Shown piece after piece: positions 271-43,305 of a stretch of DNA of 43,447 nt. The stretch lies in the IMG/VR virus record IMGVR_UViG_3300021057_000007, positions 1 through 43,447 of that record; one strand, given 5' to 3'. Below the pieces are notes generated by a model. The model was not told the origin of the DNA and did no database searches. It saw only the letters and a list, made by a program, of their open reading frames with translations. The stretch is from a virus. The first letter of the stretch is position 1. Each line of letters begins with the position of its first letter. The position numbers and the translations under genes were made by a program.

Positions 271-286
271 TTCTAGTATGTCTAGG
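271..286 (+). promoter_or_regulatory. CTAG-TATGT-CTAG element, copy A
   Basis: The 16 bp TTCTAGTATGTCTAGG recurs exactly inside two longer repeats at 36134-36173 (reverse) and 40608-40647. The core is a quasi-palindrome, CTAG-N5-CTAG. All three copies lie just upstream of a gene or operon, so an operator or promoter element is likely. A TTGACT hexamer at 254-259 could be a -35 box with TATGTC (277-282) 17 bp later, but the other copies lack a comparable -35. Confidence 0.6.
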
Positions 287-300
287 TTCTATGGAGAACC
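285..300 (+). promoter_or_regulatory. GGTTCT-ATGG-AGAACC hairpin enclosing a start codon
   Basis: Six-base perfect arms flank a four-base loop that contains the ATG of the gene at 291. In RNA the start codon would sit in the loop of a six-pair hairpin. The same arms recur at 7767-7782 with a CTAG centre, so a DNA operator is the alternative; the ribbon-helix-helix product of the gene at 291 would be an obvious candidate ligand (inference). Confidence 0.5.
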
Positions 301-464
301 CTACACTAAAAAACTTGAAGTTCTCGGTGTCGTTGCCGGATTGGTTGGTGCGCAAGTTGATGATTCACGCTGCGGAATTAACGGTTAAGCGGGGCTCGTT
401 GGTTACAAGAGTCGATGTCATCCGGGAAGTAATGCTCGGGTACGCGGAGGAGAAGAAGCTTTGA
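291..464 (+). CDS. Ribbon-helix-helix-like small DNA-binding protein
   Basis: A 57-residue protein, MENPTLKNLKFSVSLPDWLV at its start, whose pattern fits the CopG/Arc ribbon-helix-helix fold: a short polar-hydrophobic beta strand (LKFSVSLP), then two helices ending in RVDVIREVMLGYAEEKK. The stop overlaps the TTG start of the next gene by four bases. Its ATG sits in the loop of the 285-300 hairpin, just after the CTAG element, so it may regulate itself. The fold call rests on pattern only. Confidence 0.65.
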   Translation: MENPTLKNLKFSVSLPDWLVRKLMIHAAELTVKRGSLVTRVDVIREVMLGYAEEKKL

Positions 465-14711: not shown

Positions 14712-16083
14712 TCCCCTCGATCCAAATCAAGTCGCCAGCGGCGGCGGGCAGCAACCGGGACCGGGCACGGGAGCCGGGGGACAGCAGCCTCCGTATTATC
14801 CGGGGCAACCGCAAGTTCCTCAACAAGCGCCTACCTATTACGGGCAGGGCGGATTAACGCTGCAAGGCGGGGTCTCTCAGACCGGGGCGCCGGTTTACGG
14901 CGGCGCCGGGGATGCCAACTATGCGAGCTCCTCTGTTACCGGCACAATACGACAGCCGATTACTTACGGCGATCAAGCGAACACGCTTGCCGCTGTTGCT
15001 CAAGGGCGAGCAGATCAAGCCAACGCAATGGGCTTGACGCTCCAGGGTGCCGCCAATCAATCGGCATCCGACCAATGGGAGCATTGGGGTTCAGTCGCGC
15101 AAGGAACCGGGGGATTCGGCACGGCTCCGCAGATCTACCAGGGCGGGCACGATTACTCCGCATACATCAACGAACCCGGAGTTAATAAGGCTCTCGTTCC
15201 GGACAACATGGAAGCAGCTTACGGCGGGCAACCGGGTTACCATCTGGGAGTATTACCGAGCGCTCCAAGCGGTGGCAGTAACTTCGGCGCCGGCTCCGAA
15301 TACAACTCTCAAGGCTACATTTACGAACCCGGATTCACTCCGGGGTCAACGGGAGCGCTTAGCGGCAAGCCGCTCTTTGCGCCTTACAACAACGGTGATT
15401 ATTCAACTCAAGTATCCGGAACGATCATGGGCGGCATGACAGGTTCACCGCCTGCGGTGGCGCTGCCAGGCGTTAACAGCGGCTACGGTCCAGGAGCCGG
15501 CACGCCTGCTGCAAACGGCATCCGTAATGGTGGCTGGATTGAAGACGACAATATCAACTCGATCCAGTTCATTCCGGATCCGAATAATCCTGGCAAAGGG
15601 ACGTTTGTTCCAAACACAGCTACGGGTGGCACAGCCTACGGAACCGGCATGACTTACGCGCCTGGCTATGTGCCGGAGCTGGGCACTGCTGCCAATATGA
15701 AGAACTACTATGACGGTGTTCTTGCCGCCAATCGTCCGGGCGCTAATTCGGCAACCATCGACACGATAACGATCCCGAGGTCTCAGCTTCCGGGAGCTAA
15801 TCTATCCGTATCCGGGAAGACGCTTGCACCGCAGCCAGCGCCACCACCGAAGGCGAAAGCATCAGCGCCTGTTAAGGCAGGCGTCCCGGTTGCCGCCGCA
15901 CCGCGTCCAGTGGCAGCACCAGTTGCTCAACCGGTAGCAGTTGCAAGACCTGCACCTTCCCAAACCCAGGTTGCGCAAGTTGTGCAGGCGCCGGTATATA
16001 CGGGAATCGTTTACAACCAGAAGCCTGTTTACGGCGGCGCCGGGGATGCTAATTATGCCGGCGGCGGATACGCAAATTTATAG
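14653..16083 (+). CDS. Gly/Pro/Gln/Tyr-rich repeat-flanked protein
   Basis: 476 residues from TTG 14653, the only usable start because a stop lies 19 bases upstream and no other start follows for about 70 codons. The sequence is disordered (GTGAGGQQPPYYPGQPQVPQ). The motif VYGGAGDANYA occurs near residue 82 and again near residue 460, encoded by a 32-bp DNA repeat. A Pro/Ala-rich hinge (residues about 395-440) precedes the second copy. Probably a virion protein; function unknown. Confidence 0.6.
   Translation: MLSLREAGFPPSSGQPVPSNPLDPNQVASGGGQQPGPGTGAGGQQPPYYPGQPQVPQQAPTYYGQGGLTLQGGVSQTGAPVYGGAGDANYASSSVTGTIRQPITYGDQANTLAAVAQGRADQANAMGLTLQGAANQSASDQWEHWGSVAQGTGGFGTAPQIYQGGHDYSAYINEPGVNKALVPDNMEAAYGGQPGYHLGVLPSAPSGGSNFGAGSEYNSQGYIYEPGFTPGSTGALSGKPLFAPYNNGDYSTQVSGTIMGGMTGSPPAVALPGVNSGYGPGAGTPAANGIRNGGWIEDDNINSIQFIPDPNNPGKGTFVPNTATGGTAYGTGMTYAPGYVPELGTAANMKNYYDGVLAANRPGANSATIDTITIPRSQLPGANLSVSGKTLAPQPAPPPKAKASAPVKAGVPVAAAPRPVAAPVAQPVAVARPAPSQTQVAQVVQAPVYTGIVYNQKPVYGGAGDANYAGGGYANL
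14893..14924 (+). repeat. 32-bp direct repeat, copy 1, inside a gene
   Basis: GTTTACGGCGGCGCCGGGGA and the following bases match 16027-16058 with two mismatches. The copies are 1134 bp apart, exactly 378 codons, so recombination between them would delete the middle of the gene in frame. Confidence 0.9.
16027..16058 (+). repeat. 32-bp direct repeat, copy 2, inside a gene
   Basis: This is the second copy, near the 3' end of the gene; the first 23 bases are identical to copy 1 and both encode VYGGAGDANYA. The differences fall at synonymous positions, which implies selection on the peptide. Confidence 0.9.
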
Positions 16084-28734: not shown

Positions 28735-28955
28735 GACTTTATCTTCTGCTTCAGTTCAAGCGTCCGCCTGAAGGCATCTAAGTTCTCGTTGTGGCACATC
28801 GCCTCCCACTCTTGGGCGTATGAAAGGCGCGTCGCCAGCGGTAAGTTCTCAGCGTTGAGAATCAACCAAAACGCTTCTTGGGCGCGCTCGAAATGTGTCC
28901 GCCCTGCTGCTGCAACATCTTGAGGCAACACGCGAACCATGTCTTCTTCGTTCAC
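28722..28955 (-). CDS. Helical hypothetical protein
   Basis: 77 residues from GTG 28955, coupled to the gene upstream by overlap. Almost wholly helical and charged (THFERAQEAFWLILNAENL, then LEAFRRTLELKQKI-like text). It is the last gene of the long coupled operon running from 32593. Function unknown. Confidence 0.55.
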   Translation of the reverse strand: MNEEDMVRVLPQDVAAAGRTHFERAQEAFWLILNAENLPLATRLSYAQEWEAMCHNENLDAFRRTLELKQKIKSFET

Positions 28956-29503
28956 TTATCCAACTCCTTAGCCATCTCCCACGCCCACTTCACCCCAGCG
29001 TCCCAGCCCTTTTGGTATCCGTCCTGGAAGGATTCGGGGTCGTGGATGATTTGTGGTGGACCGCCTTTCGGGATGTACATAAGTTGAGGCTTCTCAGTCT
29101 CTCCATTCGCAGCGTCTAAGGCTGCCTGGAACTCGTCGTTAAAGTCTCTTGCGACGCAAGCTATATCGCTGTCAGGGTCTATATCCAGTGCAGCCTTAAG
29201 GTCGTCAGCGGACTTGTAGATGAGAGGCTTACGCCCTTCATCCTCTTCAGGCTCCTCATTAATGACGGCTCCCTTAGATTGATAGAACCTGACAGCTTTC
29301 TGGAAGTTCTCGCCTCCGATCTTCTTCCAGCCCATCTCGATCTGGTTGAGTCCGCGCGCTGTCATCCCTAAAGCTTTGGCGGCTTCTTCTTGCTCCATGT
29401 TCAGTTGGAGTCGCAAGTCTGTGAGACATGCGCCCATGCGTTTCTGTTTAGCCTTCTGCGCCTGGGCTAGTTGTTCGTCTGTCCATTCCGGTGCTTGTGT
29501 CAT
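28952..29503 (-). CDS. XRE-family HTH protein
   Basis: 183 residues. Residues about 25-70 hold a lambda-repressor-type HTH: LTDLRLQLNMEQEEAAKALG then MTARGLNQIEMGWKKIG, with the usual Q-x-E-A-A and recognition-helix layout. The rest is acidic, with an EEPEEDEGRK linker and an aromatic C-terminus (GYQKGWDAGVKWAWEMAK). It lies inside a metabolic/replication operon, so a regulator of early genes is likely. The start overlaps the upstream gene by 56 bases; Met at 29437 is an alternative. Confidence 0.65.
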   Translation of the reverse strand: MTQAPEWTDEQLAQAQKAKQKRMGACLTDLRLQLNMEQEEAAKALGMTARGLNQIEMGWKKIGGENFQKAVRFYQSKGAVINEEPEEDEGRKPLIYKSADDLKAALDIDPDSDIACVARDFNDEFQAALDAANGETEKPQLMYIPKGGPPQIIHDPESFQDGYQKGWDAGVKWAWEMAKELDK

Positions 29504-32608: not shown

Positions 32609-32815
32609 TTAATCGTGGATAGGGGTGCTGGTAGCCAACCCGAGGGCAGGCGGTTCCACCGGAGCGCCTGGCAAGCGGGACTTGCGGAAGTTATCGAGGT
32701 AACGTCTCAAGGACTCCCGTATCAAATCGCTCCGGGTGCGGTGTTCGATATGTGCAACTTGATCAACTTGGTCGAGCATTGCCGGGGGCAAAGCAATAAG
32801 CACTTTCTTTGGCAT
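32609..32815 (-). CDS. CopG-type ribbon-helix-helix regulator
   Basis: 68 residues from ATG 32815. MPKKVLIALPPAMLDQVDQV then RTRSDLIRESLRRYLDNF is a textbook RHH: strand, IALPPAMLDQVD helix, TRSDLIRESLRRYL helix. It binds DNA as a dimer, usually as an autoregulator or antitoxin; no toxin gene is next to it. AGGAG lies eleven bases upstream. It precedes the OB-fold-like gene. Confidence 0.8.
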   Translation of the reverse strand: MPKKVLIALPPAMLDQVDQVAHIEHRTRSDLIRESLRRYLDNFRKSRLPGAPVEPPALGLATSTPIHD

Positions 32816-32863
32816 GTCAAGGAGTTCTCCTGTTGTTCTTCTATATGTACGAGTAGATACCAT

Positions 32864-35168: not shown

Positions 35169-35375
35169 TCACTTGAAGCGCCTCAGTCGATCATGCAGCG
35201 CGATATTCTTCGCGATGTGCTCCCGATGCCTGCGAGCATCACAGTAAACGCAATCCGTCTCTACCGCCACCGGGGAAAGGTTTCCGCATAATGCGCACTT
35301 CCTCCAAACGTCCTTGTCCGTGTTATCAAAGACGCTGAGCAGCTTAAGGGTTAGGGCTTTGAGGATTGCGATCAA
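35169..35375 (-). CDS. Zinc-ribbon small protein
   Basis: 68 residues from TTG 35375, overlapping the upstream stop (TTGA) with AAGGAGAG nearby. KCALCGNLSPVAVETDCVYC forms a CxxC-x13-CxxC ribbon near residues 27-45, followed by a His/Arg-rich helix. It is the last gene of the excisionase-like operon. Function unknown. Confidence 0.6.
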   Translation of the reverse strand: MIAILKALTLKLLSVFDNTDKDVWRKCALCGNLSPVAVETDCVYCDARRHREHIAKNIALHDRLRRFK

Positions 35376-35662
35376 GCCTCGCTCTCCTTACCAGGAAGTG
35401 GGATCTCCATAGAGAACAGGATCTTGTCTTCAGACTTGACGAGTATTTCAGCATCGCCCTCACCGCAAGTTTCCTTGGTGCTGGAAACCACGCGCTCATT
35501 TATCCATGCGTCCAGATCGGCTTGTCGATAGCGAACGGCTCTCGCGGAGATTTTTACGAACTTTGGACCATCACCTTTCATTCTTCGGATAGCAAGGAAT
35601 CTGGCTGTGTAACCGAGATACTCTGCTGCTTGCTCGGGGCTTAAAAGACCTATAGGTTCCAT
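35372..35662 (-). CDS. Excisionase-like winged HTH protein 1
   Basis: 96 residues. GLLSPEQAAEYLGYTARFLA then VKISARAVRYRQADLDAWI is the HTH_17/AlpA pattern: helix, turn, recognition helix, and a wing leading to LDAWI. Such proteins direct recombination (Xis) or activate phage promoters. The ribosome site GAGGTGAT is almost a perfect anti-Shine-Dalgarno match. It is the third of three similar genes in a row. Confidence 0.75.
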   Translation of the reverse strand: MEPIGLLSPEQAAEYLGYTARFLAIRRMKGDGPKFVKISARAVRYRQADLDAWINERVVSSTKETCGEGDAEILVKSEDKILFSMEIPLPGKESEA

Positions 35663-35672
35663 CTATCACCTC

Positions 35673-35876
35673 TTAATTGTTTCCGGCGCTCTGCCGGGCG
35701 ATGTAGTCCTGAATGGCAGCGGGCGTTATCCGCACCAATCGCCCCACCCTGAATGAAGCAATTTGTTGATCTTTAACGAGAGCCCACGTCATTCGCTCAC
35801 TTATTCCTAGTGATTGTGCTGTTTCTCTGACGGTTAAAGCCGCCCTGGGATTACTTGCTACATCCATCTTGCTCAT
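35673..35876 (-). CDS. Excisionase-like winged HTH protein 2
   Basis: 67 residues. ALTVRETAQSLGISERMTWA and ASFRVGRLVRITPAAIQDYI follow the same HTH_17 layout as its neighbours. It overlaps the upstream gene by four bases (ATGA) and ends 10 bases before the next. Its length is typical of a recombination directionality factor. Confidence 0.75.
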   Translation of the reverse strand: MSKMDVASNPRAALTVRETAQSLGISERMTWALVKDQQIASFRVGRLVRITPAAIQDYIARQSAGNN

Positions 35877-36103
35877 TGTTCGCCTCCCGGGCTGAATGAG
35901 CGCGAGTGCTGTAGCACCGGCACTGTATGTCTTGCCACAAAATCCCGCAAACCAGTAACCGAGAGAAGCACGCGGCGACCGAATCGGACGGTTTCAATTT
36001 CTCTATTAGAGATCCTGTCACGCATCTCCCGCTCGGAAATCCCGCAAATTACAGCGCCCTCCTTGACCGATACCGCTAAACGTGGGACTGCTTGTTCATC
36101 CAT
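35873..36103 (-). CDS. Excisionase-like winged HTH protein 3
   Basis: 76 residues from ATG 36103, preferred to the TTG at 36133 because AGGAAG lies ten bases upstream. RLAVSVKEGAVICGISEREM and ETVRFGRRVLLSVTGLRDFV give the HTH and wing. It is the first gene of the operon and lies 30 bases after repeat copy B. From copy B a 15-codon frame (MSRVVSLRRKTHEHG) ends over its start codon. Confidence 0.7.
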   Translation of the reverse strand: MDEQAVPRLAVSVKEGAVICGISEREMRDRISNREIETVRFGRRVLLSVTGLRDFVARHTVPVLQHSRSFSPGGEQ

Positions 36104-36133: not shown

Positions 36134-36173
36134 CCCTAGACATACTAGAACTCGGTATATATCGCGGATTAAA
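36134..36173 (-). repeat. 40-bp repeat, copy B (inverted relative to copy C)
   Basis: On the minus strand this matches 40608-40647 at 38 of 40 positions and ends in the CTAG-TATGT-CTAG core shared with 271-286. It includes TATATACC, a possible -10. It sits directly upstream of the three-HTH operon. Orientation is opposite to copy C, so the two copies flank 36174-40607 as inverted repeats. Confidence 0.85.
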
Positions 36174-36344
36174 AAACAAAGCGAAACTCACCGTTTTGGA
36201 TTGTTCCGCTTTTTCCTGTATAGGGAGAAATAATCCCTCTTGAATAGTGGTGTAAAGGATTACCGGCGCAGTGTTTCACAAACCGCCAATAAAAACCCCG
36301 AAAAATGCCAACCGTTTTATCCCCTCATTTTTCAGAGTTTTTAT

Positions 36345-36387
36345 CCCAATAAAAACAACAAACCCCCGGGAACATTACCACCCGGGG
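36345..36387 (-). terminator. Intrinsic terminator of the recombinase/helicase transcript
   Basis: CCCCGGG (36364-36370) and CCCGGGG (36381-36387) form a seven-pair GC stem around a ten-base loop. On the minus strand the stem is followed by GTTTGTTGTTTTTATT, a T-rich tract. It lies 60 bases after the recombinase stop, in the right orientation. Confidence 0.75.
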
Positions 36388-36449
36388 ATTTGAAGCTTTG
36401 GCGATACACGGGAAACCGTTATGGTTACCGGCTCCCGCATTTGAGGATA

Positions 36450-37220
36450 CTAGGGGGATTCCTGTGATTCAAGGGCTTTGATAATGCGGGAAACCTGGAC
36501 GTGCCGCCATGTTCCGTTGTCCCGTGTCGGGATACCGGCATCGTTCAAGTCTTTTGCGATCGTAGAGAAAGAGAGCCCGGATTCGTAAGACTCGATGATT
36601 TGAGCGAGCACTTGTTGTTCGGCTTCGTTCGGCTCGAGGGTATGCAGGCTCTTTCCGTCTTCATCAACGGTTGTTTTCCAGCCATAAGGCGGTCTGCCTT
36701 TGTCGTATTGACCGTTTTCGCGGTAACGGTGGAAAGCATCCCGGGTCTTCTCGGCAGACTGCTTGCGCATCATCTGGAATGCAGCCATCAAGACGGTAGC
36801 TGCAAACTCACCCATCGCATTAGAGGTATCGAGGTTCAGGTCCAGGAAGACCATAACTTTGCCGGCGGCACGGAACTTCTCAACTTGAGCGAGAAAGTCT
36901 TTCGTGGATCTGGCGAACCTATCCATGTAAGCAACGATGATGCCGTCAGCGTTGTCGGAGAACACGAGTTCAAGCGCTGCCTGGAGTTCCGGTCTATCGA
37001 GAGATCCACCGCTGGCGGTCTCCGTCTTCACATCAACAACAGCGTGTCCCATGAGGTTGCAGTAGTCCTTCATTCTCTGGATTTGAGTTTCAGGTGATGA
37101 GTCTGCTTGAAGCATTGTTGACTTGCGAGCATAAAGCACCAGGCGCTTCGGAGCGTTAGCATCTGAAGTCTTAGCAACATGCAGTTTCGATTTTCTAGTA
37201 GGGCGTGTTAGTCTGTTCAT
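36450..37220 (-). CDS. Compact serine recombinase 2
   Basis: 256 residues from ATG 37220 (AGGA eight bases before); ATG 37274 is an upstream alternative. The resolvase domain holds LVLYARKSTMLQADSSPETQ with Ser34 and Arg32, and VAYMDRFARS with Arg101 and Arg104. From about 160, YDKGRPPYGWKT and an HTH-like end (LNDAGIPTRDNGTWRHVQVS) form a short recombinase domain. Like recombinase 1 it lacks the zinc-ribbon region. It lies inside the segment flanked by inverted repeats B and C. Confidence 0.87.
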   Translation of the reverse strand: MNRLTRPTRKSKLHVAKTSDANAPKRLVLYARKSTMLQADSSPETQIQRMKDYCNLMGHAVVDVKTETASGGSLDRPELQAALELVFSDNADGIIVAYMDRFARSTKDFLAQVEKFRAAGKVMVFLDLNLDTSNAMGEFAATVLMAAFQMMRKQSAEKTRDAFHRYRENGQYDKGRPPYGWKTTVDEDGKSLHTLEPNEAEQQVLAQIIESYESGLSFSTIAKDLNDAGIPTRDNGTWRHVQVSRIIKALESQESP

Positions 37221-37378
37221 TGCAGTAGTCCTTATTCCTTGAGGTATTGCGAGCTCCGATTGAACCAATCGCATGGGGTAAATCGGGCGGGCGTCGGATC
37301 TTTAGAACGATGTCCGCCTTTGCTCATCTATATATTAGCATAAGTGTTCAGGGTGTGGGTGTTCGGATTATTTAAACC

Positions 37379-38755
37379 TCAAGGAGATTCAAACCGGAAG
37401 CATCCTCCGTTAAAGCGAACGGTTGCGGTGCCGGTTGCTCCGTGTCTATTCTTGGCAAGAATGAAGTCAGCTTCTCCGGGTCGTTCATCGTACGGAGGGG
37501 AGGCATCGGGACGGTGGATAAGGATCACCGAGTCGGCATCGGCTTCAATTGATCCGGAGTCTCTCAAGTGGTTTAGCATCGGCACCTTTGTCTTTACGGT
37601 CTCCCGGGTCAATTGAGACAAAGCGATAACGGGGAGTCCGAGATCAATTGCTTGCATCTTCAAGCCTCTACTGATTGCTCCAATTTCCGTGTTGCGGGTT
37701 TCCTCGTCGGAGGCTGAAACCATCTGTTGCAGGTAGTCAACGATTACCATGTCTGCGTTGTGAGCCTGGACGAGTAAGCGAAGGTCGGCAACAGTAAGTG
37801 AGGAGCGCTGCAAGACCTTAATTGAGGATTGTCCGAGCTCCTCCATTGCTTTCTCGATTGCCTGGTATTCACGCGGCAGCGCAAGCGACAAGCCTTTCTG
37901 GAGGTCCTTGTCGGGGATACCGCATTGAGCAGACACCAGGCGCGCGGCAATCTCGTCTTGGGACATCTCTAACGACAGAAACAGGACGCGCTTATTCAAG
38001 GTAATGCCGACATGCCGACAGATATCCAGAGCCAGGCATGTCTTACCGACGCCTGGACGAGCTGCAATCACCATCAGGTGACCGGGCAGCATACCGCCTA
38101 ACCAGTGGTCGATCCGGGAAACTCCCGTCGTTATTCCTCGGGTCTCCGGGGGGTTCTCTAATTGCTCCCGGTATCGCTGCAACACAACCGAGAGATCCGG
38201 AGACGATCGTTCCTCGAGAACATCTTGAGCAATAACCCCGAGGTTAACCGCTGTTATCTTCAAGATCTGCGCTGCAGTCAAACCGGACTCCGCGTTCTCT
38301 TTGACTTCGGAACCCAGGCGCGCAAGCCTCCTTGTAAGCGAGGCGTTTCTTATTCTTCGGATGTGATAAGCAACTGCCACCGAAACAACAAAGGCATCAA
38401 AGAGATCCATTAGATATGTATACATAACCAGCTCAAGAGCGTTGTTATCTTTCAACTCTTGAACAACGGCTGCGAAGTCTCCGGTCTCAGCGACAAGCAT
38501 TGCCTTATAAATTGTTCGGTGTTTCCAGTCGTAGAAGTCCTCGGGCAGCAAGCTCGCCGTAACTTCGCAGTACATATGAGGGTGATTGAAGAGCACGGTC
38601 AACACCGCTTGCTCGCAATAGAAAACGTTTGTTTCGAGAACATCCTCGGTCGTCAACTCCGGGAACTCGATCACCTTTCCCGGTTCCTTACTCAAAGGCA
38701 CCACATTGCTGAAGTCGTCCTTAAAAGGATCGTCTTCTTCGGGGTAAACGTACAT
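37379..38755 (-). CDS. dnaB: DnaB-type replicative helicase
   Basis: 458 residues, the normal length. The N-terminal helical domain is present (NVFYCEQAVLTVLFNHPHMY, residues 43-62, and PEDFYDWKHRTIY). The RecA-like motor has Walker A ARPGVGKT at 232-239, SLEMSQDEIAARL near 261-273 and Walker B VIVDYLQ at 337-343, then RNTEIGAISRGLK and a QLTRE motif. It unwinds DNA 5' to 3' at forks as a hexamer. AGGAG precedes the ATG. With no phage polymerase or primase seen, it likely recruits the host replisome. Confidence 0.93.
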   Translation of the reverse strand: MYVYPEEDDPFKDDFSNVVPLSKEPGKVIEFPELTTEDVLETNVFYCEQAVLTVLFNHPHMYCEVTASLLPEDFYDWKHRTIYKAMLVAETGDFAAVVQELKDNNALELVMYTYLMDLFDAFVVSVAVAYHIRRIRNASLTRRLARLGSEVKENAESGLTAAQILKITAVNLGVIAQDVLEERSSPDLSVVLQRYREQLENPPETRGITTGVSRIDHWLGGMLPGHLMVIAARPGVGKTCLALDICRHVGITLNKRVLFLSLEMSQDEIAARLVSAQCGIPDKDLQKGLSLALPREYQAIEKAMEELGQSSIKVLQRSSLTVADLRLLVQAHNADMVIVDYLQQMVSASDEETRNTEIGAISRGLKMQAIDLGLPVIALSQLTRETVKTKVPMLNHLRDSGSIEADADSVILIHRPDASPPYDERPGEADFILAKNRHGATGTATVRFNGGCFRFESP

Positions 38756-39351
38756 GTATAATGGCTCCTATAGCTTTTATTGCCGGTTAGCCGCTCGCCC
38801 TTGATCTGAACAGATCCGGGGCGTTCGTCTATCGGAGTATATGTTTTGGCATGCCGGTTAAGCATCCACCCGTAAATTTAGGGCACCAAAGACAATACCA
38901 CTGCTCAATTTCTATTGCCACTAGTGCACACAAGAAAGATTTCGAAGAGAATTAATGTATAAGGGAAACCCGCATGAACCCTCAGTCTTAGAGTGGTGGC
39001 ACTTTAAAGATGAGACGTTGGGGGGTTGAATCAGAAGTCATTCAAAAGTATACATTCAGGTAGATGATTCCAGAATTAAGGATTTTAGGAATCTTCAAAA
39101 CACCTTGAGTCCGGGTTCCTGAGGCTCTCTAAATAACCTGCAATTCTTCAATACCCTCCTTTGCTCTGCCCTTGCGCCGTGTGCGCCCCCAAAGCGCACA
39201 CGCAAGGCAGCAAGGGGGCTTGAGAGAGCTTGAAGAGATGCAGATGAATAGAAGAACTCAGAGTCCCGGGAAATAAAGAAACCCCTCAATCAAAAGGAAT
39301 CTGAAGGTTCCTCAAATCTGATTGGGCTATTAAGTAGGAGTGTATTCGCAC
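38756..39351. other. Long structured intergenic region, origin candidate
   Basis: 596 bp without a gene lie between the divergent helicase and the gene at 39352. It has GATCTG-AA-CAGATC (about 38800-38813), a minus-strand TATACT (possible -10 for the helicase) and the large hairpin at 39161-39213. Near 39294-39328, AATCTGA is repeated and GGAATCTGAAGGTTCC forms a dyad. Dense secondary structure next to a helicase gene fits a replication origin (inference). Confidence 0.5.
39161..39213. other. Large imperfect hairpin
   Basis: TGTGCGC (39180-39186) pairs with GCGCACA (39194-39200) around CCCCAAA. After a CCG bulge, CCTTGCG pairs with CGCAAGG, and outer TTG/CAA bases extend the stem with small bulges. 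Fourteen uninterrupted-in-two-blocks pairs make it the strongest structure in the intergenic DNA. It could be an origin element or part of a structured RNA. Confidence 0.6.
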
Positions 39352-39726
39352 ATGGCTCATCATCTTCAATGTCTACCCAAAGACCTCGCTTCCAAAGTCT
39401 CAGTGTTTGTCTCAAAGACATTCCGAGGTCCCTGCGAAGGATGCTTTGAAGACATAAAGGTTGGTGACTCTATGGCTTACAGAAGGCTCGGTAAGTCTAA
39501 AGGTAGAACCCCTAACCAACACATCCAGGTCATCTCCTCACTCCCAACAGAACAACTCTCCGCCATCGAGGATCACTTAGATAAGCGCTTGAAGAATGTC
39601 CTCAGCCTCACCGACCAAAGGTTATTGCGCCTCGAATCACTCATCGTCTCTCAAGCTAAAGAGATCAGGCAGCTCAAAGAACTCCTCGCCTCCAGGTCTA
39701 AGCGGACAACGAAGACAAAGGCGTGA
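39352..39726 (+). CDS. Coiled-coil hypothetical protein
   Basis: 124 residues from ATG 39352 with AGGAG eleven bases upstream; GTG 39340 is too close to it. An early CEGC pair (GPCEGCFEDIKVGD) is followed, from about residue 65, by a long helical coiled coil (DHLDKRLKNVLSLTDQRLLR) and a basic end (SKRTTKTKA). It is the first gene of the rightward block. Function unknown. Confidence 0.6.
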   Translation: MAHHLQCLPKDLASKVSVFVSKTFRGPCEGCFEDIKVGDSMAYRRLGKSKGRTPNQHIQVISSLPTEQLSAIEDHLDKRLKNVLSLTDQRLLRLESLIVSQAKEIRQLKELLASRSKRTTKTKA

Positions 39727-40171
39727 CGATACCCAGGTTCTAAAGGTAGCAAGGGCGCAAGAGGAGTAAAGAGCGTAAGGGTGTAAGGGTGTAAGCAATG
39801 CAACTCATCCTTACAACCTCGGGTTGCTCAGGCTTTGGGAGTGAGTTAGCCGACAAAGGATCTAAGAGGCATGCTGGAGCCTCACATAACCCGAACACTC
39901 ACGGTCGTGGCTGGTCAGCTATCGGGAAACAAAGAACGCTGAAGCCCCAGTGGTGTGGGGTCCTGGAGCCTCGGGAGCCAGGCAGCCCAGGCTCATCGTG
40001 AATTGACTGAGGGTGCCCCGTGCCCCGAACGCCAAATAACCCCCAATATCTATCGCTCAATTTTTTAGTTCTTTAGAATTTTTAGTTCCAAAAAATTCTC
40101 AACTTCCAAAAATTTTGAAATTTCCAAGTTCTCTATTTAGAATCGAGGGAAACGAGAGGGAGTGTGAGGGA
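39727..40171. other. Intergenic region with tandem repeats and an AT-rich island
   Basis: 445 bp; a 67-codon frame at 39798 has the look of chance. Three tandem GTAAGGGT-like units lie at 39774-39795, with a CCTTACA partner downstream. A CCTGG/CCAGG stem lies near 39961-39981. At 40061-40131 an AT-rich island has repeats TTTTTAGTTC (twice) and TTCCAAAAATT (twice, plus a partial copy), which could be an unwinding element of the origin. Confidence 0.5.
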
Positions 40172-40612
40172 ATGTCTAGGCGTCACGGATTAGTAGGGAA
40201 GTATTTAAACAAGGCTGAGAAGGCTGCGTTAAGCGATGAGGATGCGAAGGCGTTAGCGTTAGAGATTTATTGTACGGTGGCGATGCCAAAGCTTTCGGAT
40301 ATAGCCCGAAGGATCGGAAGGCATAAGGACACTGTGCAGAAGTGGTATGACGCTGACTGCTGGTTGGATCAGCGGGTAGCGCGGAGGGACCGAGAGCAGT
40401 ATGAATTGCTGGAGTCTCCGTTGTCTCCGAGTAAGAGTTGGAAGCAGCATTTGCAGCGGATAAAGAATCAGTGTGATGTTTTGGATCGGAAGATGGAAGA
40501 TCCGGGGATGTACCTGGACAACGATCAGTTTATGAAGCTGGTGAAGATTGGCGGGATGTTGATAGACCAGCAATTGGAATCCGAGGAGCGTTACTTGCAC
40601 TGGAATATTTAA
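40172..40612 (+). CDS. HTH protein, possible small terminase or replication factor
   Basis: 146 residues from ATG 40172, after GAGGGAG and GAGGG; an upstream in-frame start at 40115 has no ribosome site. AMPKLSDIARRIGRHKDTVQ then KWYDADCWLDQRVARRDREQ is a helix-turn-helix like those of some small terminase subunits. A helical C-terminus (RIKNQCDVLDRKMEDPGMYL) could oligomerise. If it is the small terminase, it is unlinked from the large subunit by about 5.4 kb. Its stop lies inside repeat copy C. Confidence 0.6.
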   Translation: MSRRHGLVGKYLNKAEKAALSDEDAKALALEIYCTVAMPKLSDIARRIGRHKDTVQKWYDADCWLDQRVARRDREQYELLESPLSPSKSWKQHLQRIKNQCDVLDRKMEDPGMYLDNDQFMKLVKIGGMLIDQQLESEERYLHWNI

Positions 40613-40647
40613 TCCCCGGTATATACCGAGTTCTAGTATGTCTAGGG
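40608..40647 (+). repeat. 40-bp repeat, copy C
   Basis: It shares 38 of 40 bases with 36134-36173 (inverted). It contains the perfect palindrome CGGTATATACCG (40618-40629, unlike copy B by one base in the left arm) and the CTAG-TATGT-CTAG core. It lies 66 bases upstream of the gene at 40713, so a promoter or operator role is plausible. Confidence 0.85.
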
Positions 40648-40712
40648 AGTTGGTAAATAAGGGAGCGGAGTTCTACCGGGACTCCGGGGCTACTGCGTTG
40701 GGAGGTACGGGA

Positions 40713-40910
40713 ATGAGTGAGCAGAAAGATTCTTTTGAGTCGGTTACAGCGGGAAGTGTTCTGCGCCAGCCATCTTTGGATGAGCGGTTGAAGGGTATTG
40801 ATGCGAAGACGACTGCAATGATTGAGCAGCGGAAGAAGTTAATTGACGGTGGGTTTGCTAAGGATGAAGCCGTTGGTCTGGTTCACCTATTGTTTCAACC
40901 CTGGATGTAA
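40713..40910 (+). CDS. Hypothetical protein
   Basis: 65 residues from ATG 40713, fixed by GGAGG at 40701-40705 with seven-base spacing; the longer frame from 40638 starts within the repeat. Charged and helical (LDERLKGIDAKTTAMIEQRK), ending in LVHLLFQPWM. The stop overlaps the next ATG. Function unknown. Confidence 0.6.
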   Translation: MSEQKDSFESVTAGSVLRQPSLDERLKGIDAKTTAMIEQRKKLIDGGFAKDEAVGLVHLLFQPWM

Positions 40911-41161
40911 TGACTGAATCCGAATCTCTTGAATCTCTAATTAATGACACGCGGGATTACCCGGGTGGGGATTGGTTGGAGGTTGAGGGGATAATGCAGA
41001 GGCAATTCGAGGAGGTCCCTTATGCTCCGTGGTTCCGGGCTGTGAGGGTCTGTGCGGAGTTTTACGAGTGTGTGGAGTGTAAGGAGGCTTGGAGTGTAAT
41101 GTGCCAGAGCTTTGACCACGCAAGGGCGTACGGGAGTGTTTATCCGAGGGTGGAGATATGA
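40910..41161 (+). CDS. Acidic hypothetical protein with Cys pair
   Basis: 83 residues, starting in a TAATG overlap. Acidic N-terminus; residues about 46-65 hold VCAEFYECVECKEAW with a CVEC pair and further Cys. It is coupled to the next gene (ATGA). No family recognised. Confidence 0.6.
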   Translation: MTESESLESLINDTRDYPGGDWLEVEGIMQRQFEEVPYAPWFRAVRVCAEFYECVECKEAWSVMCQSFDHARAYGSVYPRVEI

Positions 41162-41364
41162 ACCACGTTGAATTTTTAGCGGAGGAATCTGCGAACCGCC
41201 GACACGGGGAGTGTTCGTGTTTGGAGCGTGGCAGTTCGCAAGATTTTCAATGTCCCTGGCATCTTCATTATTACGAAGAGCTGGATCGGATAGAGCGAAG
41301 GCGAGCGGAGCAAGCCAGAGCGGTTGAGATGCAGAGACAGGACATGGAGACGTGGGGACCGTAG
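41158..41364 (+). CDS. Small Cys/His-containing protein
   Basis: 68 residues. HGECSCLERGSSQDFQCPWH (residues 16-35) gives three Cys and two His in a zinc-like cluster; the rest is a charged helix (DRIERRRAEQARAVEMQRQD). Coupled to the gene before; the next gene starts right after its stop. Function unknown. Confidence 0.6.
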   Translation: MNHVEFLAEESANRRHGECSCLERGSSQDFQCPWHLHYYEELDRIERRRAEQARAVEMQRQDMETWGP

Positions 41365-41766
41365 ATGAAAAGCTCTCAGTTATTCAAGTCTCCGAAGACC
41401 GGGAAGTTTGAGCGAGGGATCGTTGACTTCGGGGACAAGACAAAGGTTTGGGTCCCGCATGAAGCGGGATCTTTTAGGGTTGTTGAAATAAGCGACAGTT
41501 GTGTTGTTGCCCGCGTCGAAGCTGCGATTTTTAAAGGCGTATGGCATTCAGGTGATCGGTATGAGGATCTCAGAGCCGAGCGCGATGAGTTGCTTGCAGC
41601 CGTAAAGACGCTTCAAGAGGGAATGGCTTTTGCGAAGCGACAGAATGCGGAGTTGTGCCAGCGTCAACGCATAGACGATCTACTGTTTGGGATTCGCCAG
41701 CGGGTAACCGATAATGCGCATCATATCGAAGAGAGCTTGCATGCTTTGATGGAGGAATTGCCGTGA
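41365..41766 (+). CDS. Hypothetical protein with coiled-coil tail
   Basis: 133 residues. A beta-rich N-terminal half (ERGIVDFGDKTKVWVPHEAG, then VVEISDSCVVARVEAAIF) is followed by a helical half (RAERDELLAAVKTLQEGMAF). The end overlaps the next start (GTGA). No family recognised. Confidence 0.6.
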   Translation: MKSSQLFKSPKTGKFERGIVDFGDKTKVWVPHEAGSFRVVEISDSCVVARVEAAIFKGVWHSGDRYEDLRAERDELLAAVKTLQEGMAFAKRQNAELCQRQRIDDLLFGIRQRVTDNAHHIEESLHALMEELP

Positions 41767-41924
41767 GCGTATCGAAGAAATTGAGGGAATACTTCGGGGC
41801 ACCGAGCGCAAGACTTGAGGAGATGCTCCGGGAAGTTGAGAGACTCGAGGAGCGCTTAGCGGATATTGAGGTTGCTTTAGCGATCGCGCTGGATGAAGGG
41901 AACCAGGGGGAAGAAGATGCTTAG
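41763..41924 (+). CDS. 53-residue coiled-coil peptide
   Basis: The GTG start overlaps the previous stop. The sequence is a heptad-rich helix (LEEMLREVERLEERLADIEV) like SlyX-type small coiled coils. The end overlaps the next gene. Function unknown. Confidence 0.6.
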   Translation: MSVSKKLREYFGAPSARLEEMLREVERLEERLADIEVALAIALDEGNQGEEDA

Positions 41925-42048
41925 CCAATGGGATCTGTTGCATATATTGCTGGCGGTAATTGTCGGGAATATTTTGGTGAATATCTTTTGGTTGATGTTC
42001 GGGGATTTGATATTCGGTGGAGGGAGGCAAGAGGATGGGCATCGGTAG
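41917..42048 (+). CDS. 43-residue single-span membrane peptide
   Basis: ATG 41917 follows GGGGGAAGAAG. The peptide reads MLSQWDLLHILLAVIVGNIL then VNIFWLMFGDLIF, one hydrophobic helix, with a polar tail. It overlaps both neighbours. Function unknown; its position among early small genes suggests a host-takeover or exclusion role. Confidence 0.6.
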   Translation: MLSQWDLLHILLAVIVGNILVNIFWLMFGDLIFGGGRQEDGHR

Positions 42049-42511
42049 GCTTTTTTCCTTTAACGAGTACGATCGGACAACGGAAAGATTTGCCAAGGCG
42101 CTTCCGGAAATTGCGGAGACGCTGAAGAAGATGTTGGGGAGGATGGAGAGCGATGGAAATGCCGTGCCCCCGTTGTGGGTCTTCCGCAACAACCTCCGGT
42201 CTGTGCAGTACAACCATGGTGTTTTACCCTCCGATCAGTTTGGACGGGAAGATGCACAACCACGACGACAATCTGGTGACCAAGGAGTGGCGGTGTTCGG
42301 CGGGGCATCGGTTCGTCCAGAGACTCCCGAACAAGTGTTGGTGCGGGTGGGTGCAGAGTTACAGCAAGCCAAGGATCAAATCGAAGCCTATAAGCGGCTG
42401 AGGTATTTTGTTGCGCAAGTCGAGGCAATTGATGGCGCCTACGGCGCGAATAAGCCGAGACAAGCGATGCGGATGATCAAGGAAGTTGCAGACAGTTTAT
42501 TGGAGGTCTAA
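42035..42511 (+). CDS. Hypothetical protein overlapping a zinc-ribbon frame
   Basis: 158 residues from ATG 42035 with GGAGG seven bases before. The first 45 residues (FNEYDRTTERFAKALPEIAE) and the last 50 (QQAKDQIEAYKRLRYFVAQV) look like real helices. The middle 80 is low-quality text, and exactly there another frame encodes a zinc ribbon (42153-42401). Either both are translated, or the outer frame is partly a chance open frame. Confidence 0.5.
   Translation: MGIGRLFSFNEYDRTTERFAKALPEIAETLKKMLGRMESDGNAVPPLWVFRNNLRSVQYNHGVLPSDQFGREDAQPRRQSGDQGVAVFGGASVRPETPEQVLVRVGAELQQAKDQIEAYKRLRYFVAQVEAIDGAYGANKPRQAMRMIKEVADSLLEV
42153..42401 (+). CDS. Zinc-ribbon protein nested in another frame
   Basis: 82 residues from ATG 42153 after GGGGAGGATGGAGAGCG. 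MEMPCPRCGSSATTSGLC at the start, then WRCSAGHRFVQRLPNKCWCG, give a classic pair of CxxC/CxC knuckles. It is entirely inside the 42035-42511 frame, a same-strand overlap of 249 bases. The ribosome site and the domain both argue that it is real. Confidence 0.65.
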   Translation: MEMPCPRCGSSATTSGLCSTTMVFYPPISLDGKMHNHDDNLVTKEWRCSAGHRFVQRLPNKCWCGWVQSYSKPRIKSKPISG

Positions 42512-42837
42512 TGACACCACTTGAAGTGCGTGAGAATTACGAGAAGGTTGCTTGCATGTGGAGCAGCTTAAGAGGGGAGGCGTTCCAAAGCTTCGACGTT
42601 GCGAAGATGGTGGCGCTCTTTCACTTAGGTTTCGGAGCTGCAGGAACTGCGGGAGTGTTCTTGCAGGATGCGCATAACCTGCAGGTGGAGATGACGGTCC
42701 CGAATCCCCCGGAGGATATGGAATACAACGAGCAGGATTACGCGATCTTCGATCAAATGGAATCTTTGTTGGTGGAGCAGAAGGGCTTACAATCTTCTCA
42801 AGAGGTGGTTGAAGATGCGAGAGATCAATCCGTTTGA
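42511..42837 (+). CDS. Hypothetical protein
   Basis: 108 residues, starting in a TAATG overlap. Helical and acidic, with a hydrophobic middle (VALFHLGFGAAGTAGVFLQD) that may be a buried helix, not a membrane span. The last 23 bases overlap the next gene. No family recognised. Confidence 0.6.
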   Translation: MTPLEVRENYEKVACMWSSLRGEAFQSFDVAKMVALFHLGFGAAGTAGVFLQDAHNLQVEMTVPNPPEDMEYNEQDYAIFDQMESLLVEQKGLQSSQEVVEDARDQSV

Positions 42838-43096
42838 AATGCAAGGCGAGCATCTTGTGCATAAGCCGCGGAGCGTCGGGTACACGTGCAAGATCGGCTA
42901 TGCCTGCGACGGGCATTGCCGCTGTCACTGCAAAGTAAAGAGTATGAGTTTTCAGGAATGGTTTTATCGGTTCTTGCAAACGAATCCACCGATGCCGCCG
43001 TTAAAGCTTTATCCGTTCCAAGAGAAGATGGTTGAAGAGATAAGGAAGCGGCACGAGGAAGGCAAGCCTATTCGGTTATTTATTCGCAAGGGATGA
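42815..43096 (+). CDS. Cys/His-cluster hypothetical protein
   Basis: 93 residues from ATG 42815 (GAGGTGG upstream; TTG 42809 is an alternative). YTCKIGYACDGHCRCHCKVK near residues 25-44 is a dense Cys/His cluster that likely binds zinc. A charged helix follows (PFQEKMVEEIRKRHEEGKPI). Coupled to the next gene. Confidence 0.6.
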   Translation: MREINPFEMQGEHLVHKPRSVGYTCKIGYACDGHCRCHCKVKSMSFQEWFYRFLQTNPPMPPLKLYPFQEKMVEEIRKRHEEGKPIRLFIRKG

Positions 43097-43305
43097 TTTC
43101 TATGAAGGTCTATTTAGTCTGTCTCATCGACGTTCAAAATGAAGGGGATTTCCTCGATCCCGAAGGGGTGTATTCCACAAGGGAGAAGGCGGAAGCCCAT
43201 GTTGCCAAACGGCAGGAGCCGTACAAGCCTTACGCGAATCGTTGGAGCGCTCCGCAGTTTGAGATCAAGGAGTGGACTCTTGATGATGAGGAGTCCTTTA
43301 AGTGA
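43093..43305 (+). CDS. DUF7336-like small protein
   Basis: 70 residues; ATG 43093 overlaps the previous stop, and ATG 43102 is an alternative. MKVYLVCLIDVQNEGDFLDP, then GVYSTREKAEAHVAKRQ and IKEWTLDDE, matches the small phage domain in which a beta strand, an STREKAE helix and a closing beta strand recur. Function unknown. The stop overlaps the GTG of the junction gene. Confidence 0.65.
   Translation: MISMKVYLVCLIDVQNEGDFLDPEGVYSTREKAEAHVAKRQEPYKPYANRWSAPQFEIKEWTLDDEESFK

Follow-up and report, generated by a model that had tools for sequence, protein, structure and literature searches.

Putative operator sites around a serine recombinase and a DnaB helicase in the genome of an uncultured tailed phage

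Inverted repeats on either side of a serine recombinase gene raise the question whether the DNA between them is invertible or whether the repeats are sites at which a regulator acts on the neighbouring genes. Such a pair is found in the IMG/VR record IMGVR_UViG_3300021057_000007, which was analysed over its entire length of 43,447 bases (hereafter referred to as the window). The first 127 bases of the window recur at its end and the record was therefore read as a circular or permuted phage genome of 43,320 bases followed by a 127-base end repeat. Judged by its sequence, the genome is that of an uncultured tailed phage, encoding terminase, portal, major head protein, endolysin, DNA methyltransferase, Holliday junction resolvase and DnaB. 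Scans for Rfam families and tRNAs gave no matches.

The two 40-base copies, B and C, were recovered at the positions that the earlier note had given; they are inverted with respect to each other, 95% complementary (38/40) and 4434 bases apart. A third copy of 16 bases, A, which had also been reported earlier, repeats the inner 16 bases of B and C exactly. The 16-base core TTCTAGTATGTCTAGG has exactly three occurrences (Table 1), with no fourth copy within three mismatches in the whole window and the next-best site carrying four mismatches. Shuffled sequences gave a mean of 0.16 core matches at up to three mismatches and none of the 100 shuffles reached three. Similarly, the longest stretch that recurs exactly in inverted form measures 28 bases; 20 simulated sequences with the dinucleotide composition of the window reached 13-17 and never contained a 14-mer in three copies. 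The repeats are thus beyond chance expectation. The core is asymmetric and carries two CTAG tetramers nine bases apart (CTAG-N5-CTAG), forming a dyad of odd length; CTAG is depleted genome-wide (37 observed, 168 expected) and the three cores hold six of these 37. In B and C, a 12-bp palindrome with an even centre, CGGTATATACCG, ends two bases upstream of the core; it is perfect in C, has one deviating base in B and is missing from A, and the sequence on either side of it adds no further symmetry. A separate direct repeat of 36 bases (92% identity; 14889-14924 and 16023-16058) occurs in the structural region.

Table 1. Features of the three repeat copies, their surroundings and the candidate regulators (positions in the window)
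Feature	Position	Strand	Remark
Copy A, core TTCTAGTATGTCTAGG	271..286	+	ends 4 bases before ATG 291
Gene after A, 57 aa, no family match	291..464	+	ribbon-helix-helix look by eye only
HTH_3 (Cro/CI-type) protein, candidate repressor	28952..29503	-	
Ribbon-helix-helix protein (RHH_1), candidate regulator	32609..32863	-	
Second small serine recombinase, 243 aa	33852..34583	-	31% identical to the first over 183 residues
HTH_17/AlpA-like DNA-binding protein	35372..35662	-	
HTH_17 DNA-binding protein	35673..35876	-	
First gene after B, HTH_17/excisionase-like DNA-binding protein	35873..36103	-	
Copy B, 40-base element	36134..36173	-	core 36135-36150; palindrome-like part 36153-36164
Second long hairpin, about 20 pairs, between recombinase gene and B	36288..36345	-	z -4.9
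Hairpin with 12-bp stem, then T-rich tail, after recombinase gene	36359..36392	-	-27.1 kcal/mol, z -3.9
Serine recombinase, 274 aa, small type, short DNA-binding end	36450..37274	-	
DnaB-like replicative helicase, 458 aa	37379..38755	-	
Sigma-70-like match TTGAAA-N17-TAGAAT	40115..40143	+	where G over C skew begins
Gene before C: HTH, weak likeness to terminase small subunit	40172..40612	+	stop codon inside C
Copy C, 40-base element	40608..40647	+	core 40631-40646; perfect palindrome CGGTATATACCG 40617-40628
First gene after C, no family match	40713..40910	+	GGAGG seven bases before ATG

The gene content assigned earlier to the segment between B and C agrees with profile matches to a serine recombinase (PF00239, 4.7e-27, together with the first half of PF07508) and to DnaB (PF03796, 5.7e-68). 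By inspection, the recombinase has the YARKS serine motif and the DRFARS arginines and is of the active type as far as these motifs go. The replication origin that had been called likely for this segment is plausible on compositional grounds: an AT-rich repeated stretch lies at 40059-40160, the GC skew sets in abruptly at about 40,100 and a strong, GC-rich hairpin (39174-39213, z -4.7) lies in the DNA that separates DnaB from the rightward genes. From 40059 to 43305 and on to about 4040, third codon positions favour G over C and T over A, a bias with an abrupt onset near 40,100 and a rightward decay over several kb; the switch possibly marks an origin or a strong early promoter.

As the earlier note had stated, each copy lies before a gene or operon. 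All three cores have the same orientation toward the next gene and lie directly ahead of its start, at 4 (A), 31 (B; ATG 36103, minus strand) and 66 bases (C; ATG 40713) from start codons predicted from the open reading frame and a ribosome-site-like sequence. Downstream of B, three HTH_17/excisionase-like genes stand in tandem (35372-36103). Two strong hairpins stand between the recombinase gene and B, so that the left block of HTH genes probably starts its own transcription at or near B. The hairpin nearer to the recombinase gene, which a scan restricted to loops of 3-8 did not list, is a probable intrinsic terminator closing the recombinase/DnaB unit. Since the right block has one gene ahead of C, C may lie internally and not be the first promoter of that block. 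A search for sigma-70-like promoters yielded none at B or C; A has a weak match of this kind (TTGACT-N17-TATGTC), read by eye only.

These observations suggest that the three copies are probably sites at which a single regulator binds, as operator or promoter elements, before three gene blocks. B would serve the left block headed by the three HTH genes, C the right block leading toward packaging, and A a gene within the rightward block, upstream of terminase; B and C would then be inverted because the two blocks under their control diverge. The third copy lies apart from the segment; that it speaks for operators had been recognised before. The common recognition element would be the asymmetric core with its two CTAG tetramers, whereas the palindrome of B and C could bind a second, dimeric regulator or replace a -35 box; on/off control of the downstream genes would be the most likely role of the signal. 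Protein binding at the copies, the start of transcription there and the identity of the protein are what we infer, with the HTH_17 trio after B, the RHH_1 protein and the Cro/CI-type protein as candidates. CopG-like operators have two palindromic tetramers nine bases apart, a geometry considered here as a lead only; a literature search returned no source for it. The protein encoded directly after A was also considered as a ribbon-helix-helix protein and set aside, having neither a Pfam or PDB sequence match nor a meaningful fold match (low-confidence model, pLDDT 66).

The view that had been placed first, with operators as its rival, is that B and C are the substrates of the recombinase encoded at 36450-37274, so that 36174-40607 is turned around and the DNA upstream of the two divergent blocks is exchanged. 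Inverted repeats of such similarity bracketing a recombinase that keeps the catalytic motifs of its family by eye are in keeping with inversion, which would also bring the read-through gene that now precedes C into the place of the terminators at B, and the reverse. The crossover site of a serine recombinase consists of two half-sites around a 2-bp centre and hence has an even dyad. The palindrome in C is even-centred, as such a site requires, but it is short, imperfect in B and without extended symmetry, and the dyad within the core, being odd, would not fit such a centre. Moreover, the third copy lies elsewhere and lacks the palindrome, and the segment carries replication genes rather than alternative gene ends. 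The proposal that inversion would place the two operons under different upstream DNA holds only for the DNA beyond the 40-base repeats: B and C are intergenic in placement and may contain promoters, and a promoter inside the repeat would be unchanged by a flip.

Base composition provides an indirect test of flipping. In the gene 40172-40612, which belongs to the segment and adjoins C, third codon positions of the coding strand have a GC skew of +0.60. The genes that follow beyond C have +0.69, +0.47 and +0.46, and pooling of the right flank gives +0.38 (0.27 to 0.49), while the first five genes outside B have a pooled left-flank skew of 0.00 (-0.11 to 0.12). The skew is thus unbroken through C and the two flanks differ strongly. 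Were the two orientations about equally frequent over time, each flank would meet the same neighbouring DNA and a similar bias would be expected in both; the difference between them therefore indicates that the present orientation has prevailed. Frequent inversion is unlikely by this indirect test, whereas rare or recent inversion is compatible with the skew data. Together with the third copy, the orientation of the cores, the hairpins and the odd dyad, the skew leaves operators as the better supported part of the earlier proposal and removes inversion from first place; we regard recombination between B and C as improbable. Fainter still is the prospect that the phage flips a replication module (recombinase, DnaB and probable origin) between two identical outward-facing control elements, in which case the left or the right block would alternately receive read-through and adjoin the origin.

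Slightly less probable than recombination between B and C is a function of the core in the transcript, as a hairpin of 5-6 bp with the loop UAUGU (UUCUAG-UAUGU-CUAGG) for antitermination or translation control. The hairpin of lambda boxB is of the same size; here the hairpin covers almost exactly the 16 bases that the copies have in common, its loop sequence does not vary among them and every copy has the same sense relative to its downstream gene. The stem is, however, weak (-2.9 to -3.4 kcal/mol) and shows no covariation, the copies being identical; in B and C the core folds onto upstream bases of the element rather than onto itself, and B lies past the terminator-like hairpins, on the wrong side for an antitermination site. 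It is very unlikely that the 40-base copies are terminal inverted repeats of a mobile replication cassette, or partition or replication-control sites binding a replication protein: they do bracket DnaB, the recombinase and the plausible origin region, but there is no transposase among the segment genes tested, no ParA/ParB among the proteins scanned and no target duplication at the flanks (AACAA left, AGTTG right), for which reason transposon ends were rejected, and the third copy bounds nothing.

Related genomes were searched for the repeat, a check which the earlier note had suggested. The best capsid relatives are three IMG/VR records, with major capsid proteins 51, 48 and 40% identical, which have packaging and head genes in common with this phage; one of them has a related serine recombinase. 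The core did not turn up in these three records, two of which are fragments, at up to two mismatches, and three-mismatch matches in them are about as common as those of a reversed-pattern control. The DnaB was likewise unmatched in the three records, as a mobile cassette would allow. With two of the three being fragmentary, the absence of the core and of DnaB there is weak evidence. In the relative G003, sequences like ACTGGAGGACACTATG recur (L194:7146-7161 and three further places); at least two are directly before a plus-strand gene start, and they are ribosome-site-like. Positions 20000-43320 were compared with 50,697 phage records for nearly identical DNA and gave no match, nor did searches of phages and plasmids with the 66-base (C) and 71-base (B) surroundings, and a 27-base pattern was not found in genome contigs. 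Ten exact matches to the core in viral contigs all had unrelated flanks and were rejected as chance-level. Single-sequence scans with the recombinase, DnaB and TerL gave no relatives; alignment scans gave only relatives about 25-31% identical, without the motif. The segment itself was not present in any relative recovered.

Among known systems, the closest described architecture is that of the SAS/ESAS elements of Cluster K mycobacteriophages, in which an asymmetric core precedes gene starts and some copies have an upstream inverted repeat (PMC3203893). The present repeats share with them the short asymmetric core in a single orientation immediately ahead of gene starts and the inverted repeat just upstream of a subset of copies (here B and C), and may work alike without being members of that group. 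They differ in the core (GGGATAGGAGCCC in SAS/ESAS, unrelated to the one described here), in the inverted-repeat part (a 12-bp palindrome here, two 17-bp arms there), in their lower copy number, in their varied distances to the start codon and in the type of phage. The function of SAS/ESAS is itself still described as needing experimental verification (PMC12699233). The operators/stoperators of Cluster A phages such as L5 (PMC6550527, PMC9283540), at which the phage repressor binds and blocks elongation, are also similar and may work alike, their binding sites being oriented with transcription (PMC6550527) as are the sites here. The present sites again do not belong with them, being three as against 20-30 and unrelated in sequence, with no homologous repressor identified. 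Serine-invertase modules (PinQ, e14 P segment) resemble the locus in having a small serine recombinase near a pair of inverted repeats, but they flip within genes and yield alternative products (PMC12529663), whereas the repeats of this phage are in promoter position, have a third copy and lie in DNA whose composition disfavours frequent flipping.

The three copies, read as putative binding sites of one regulator, thus offer a system for testing gene control from several sites in a phage lineage without a cultured near relative. They also carry a caution, namely that inverted repeats around a recombinase need not denote invertible DNA where the neighbouring genes diverge.
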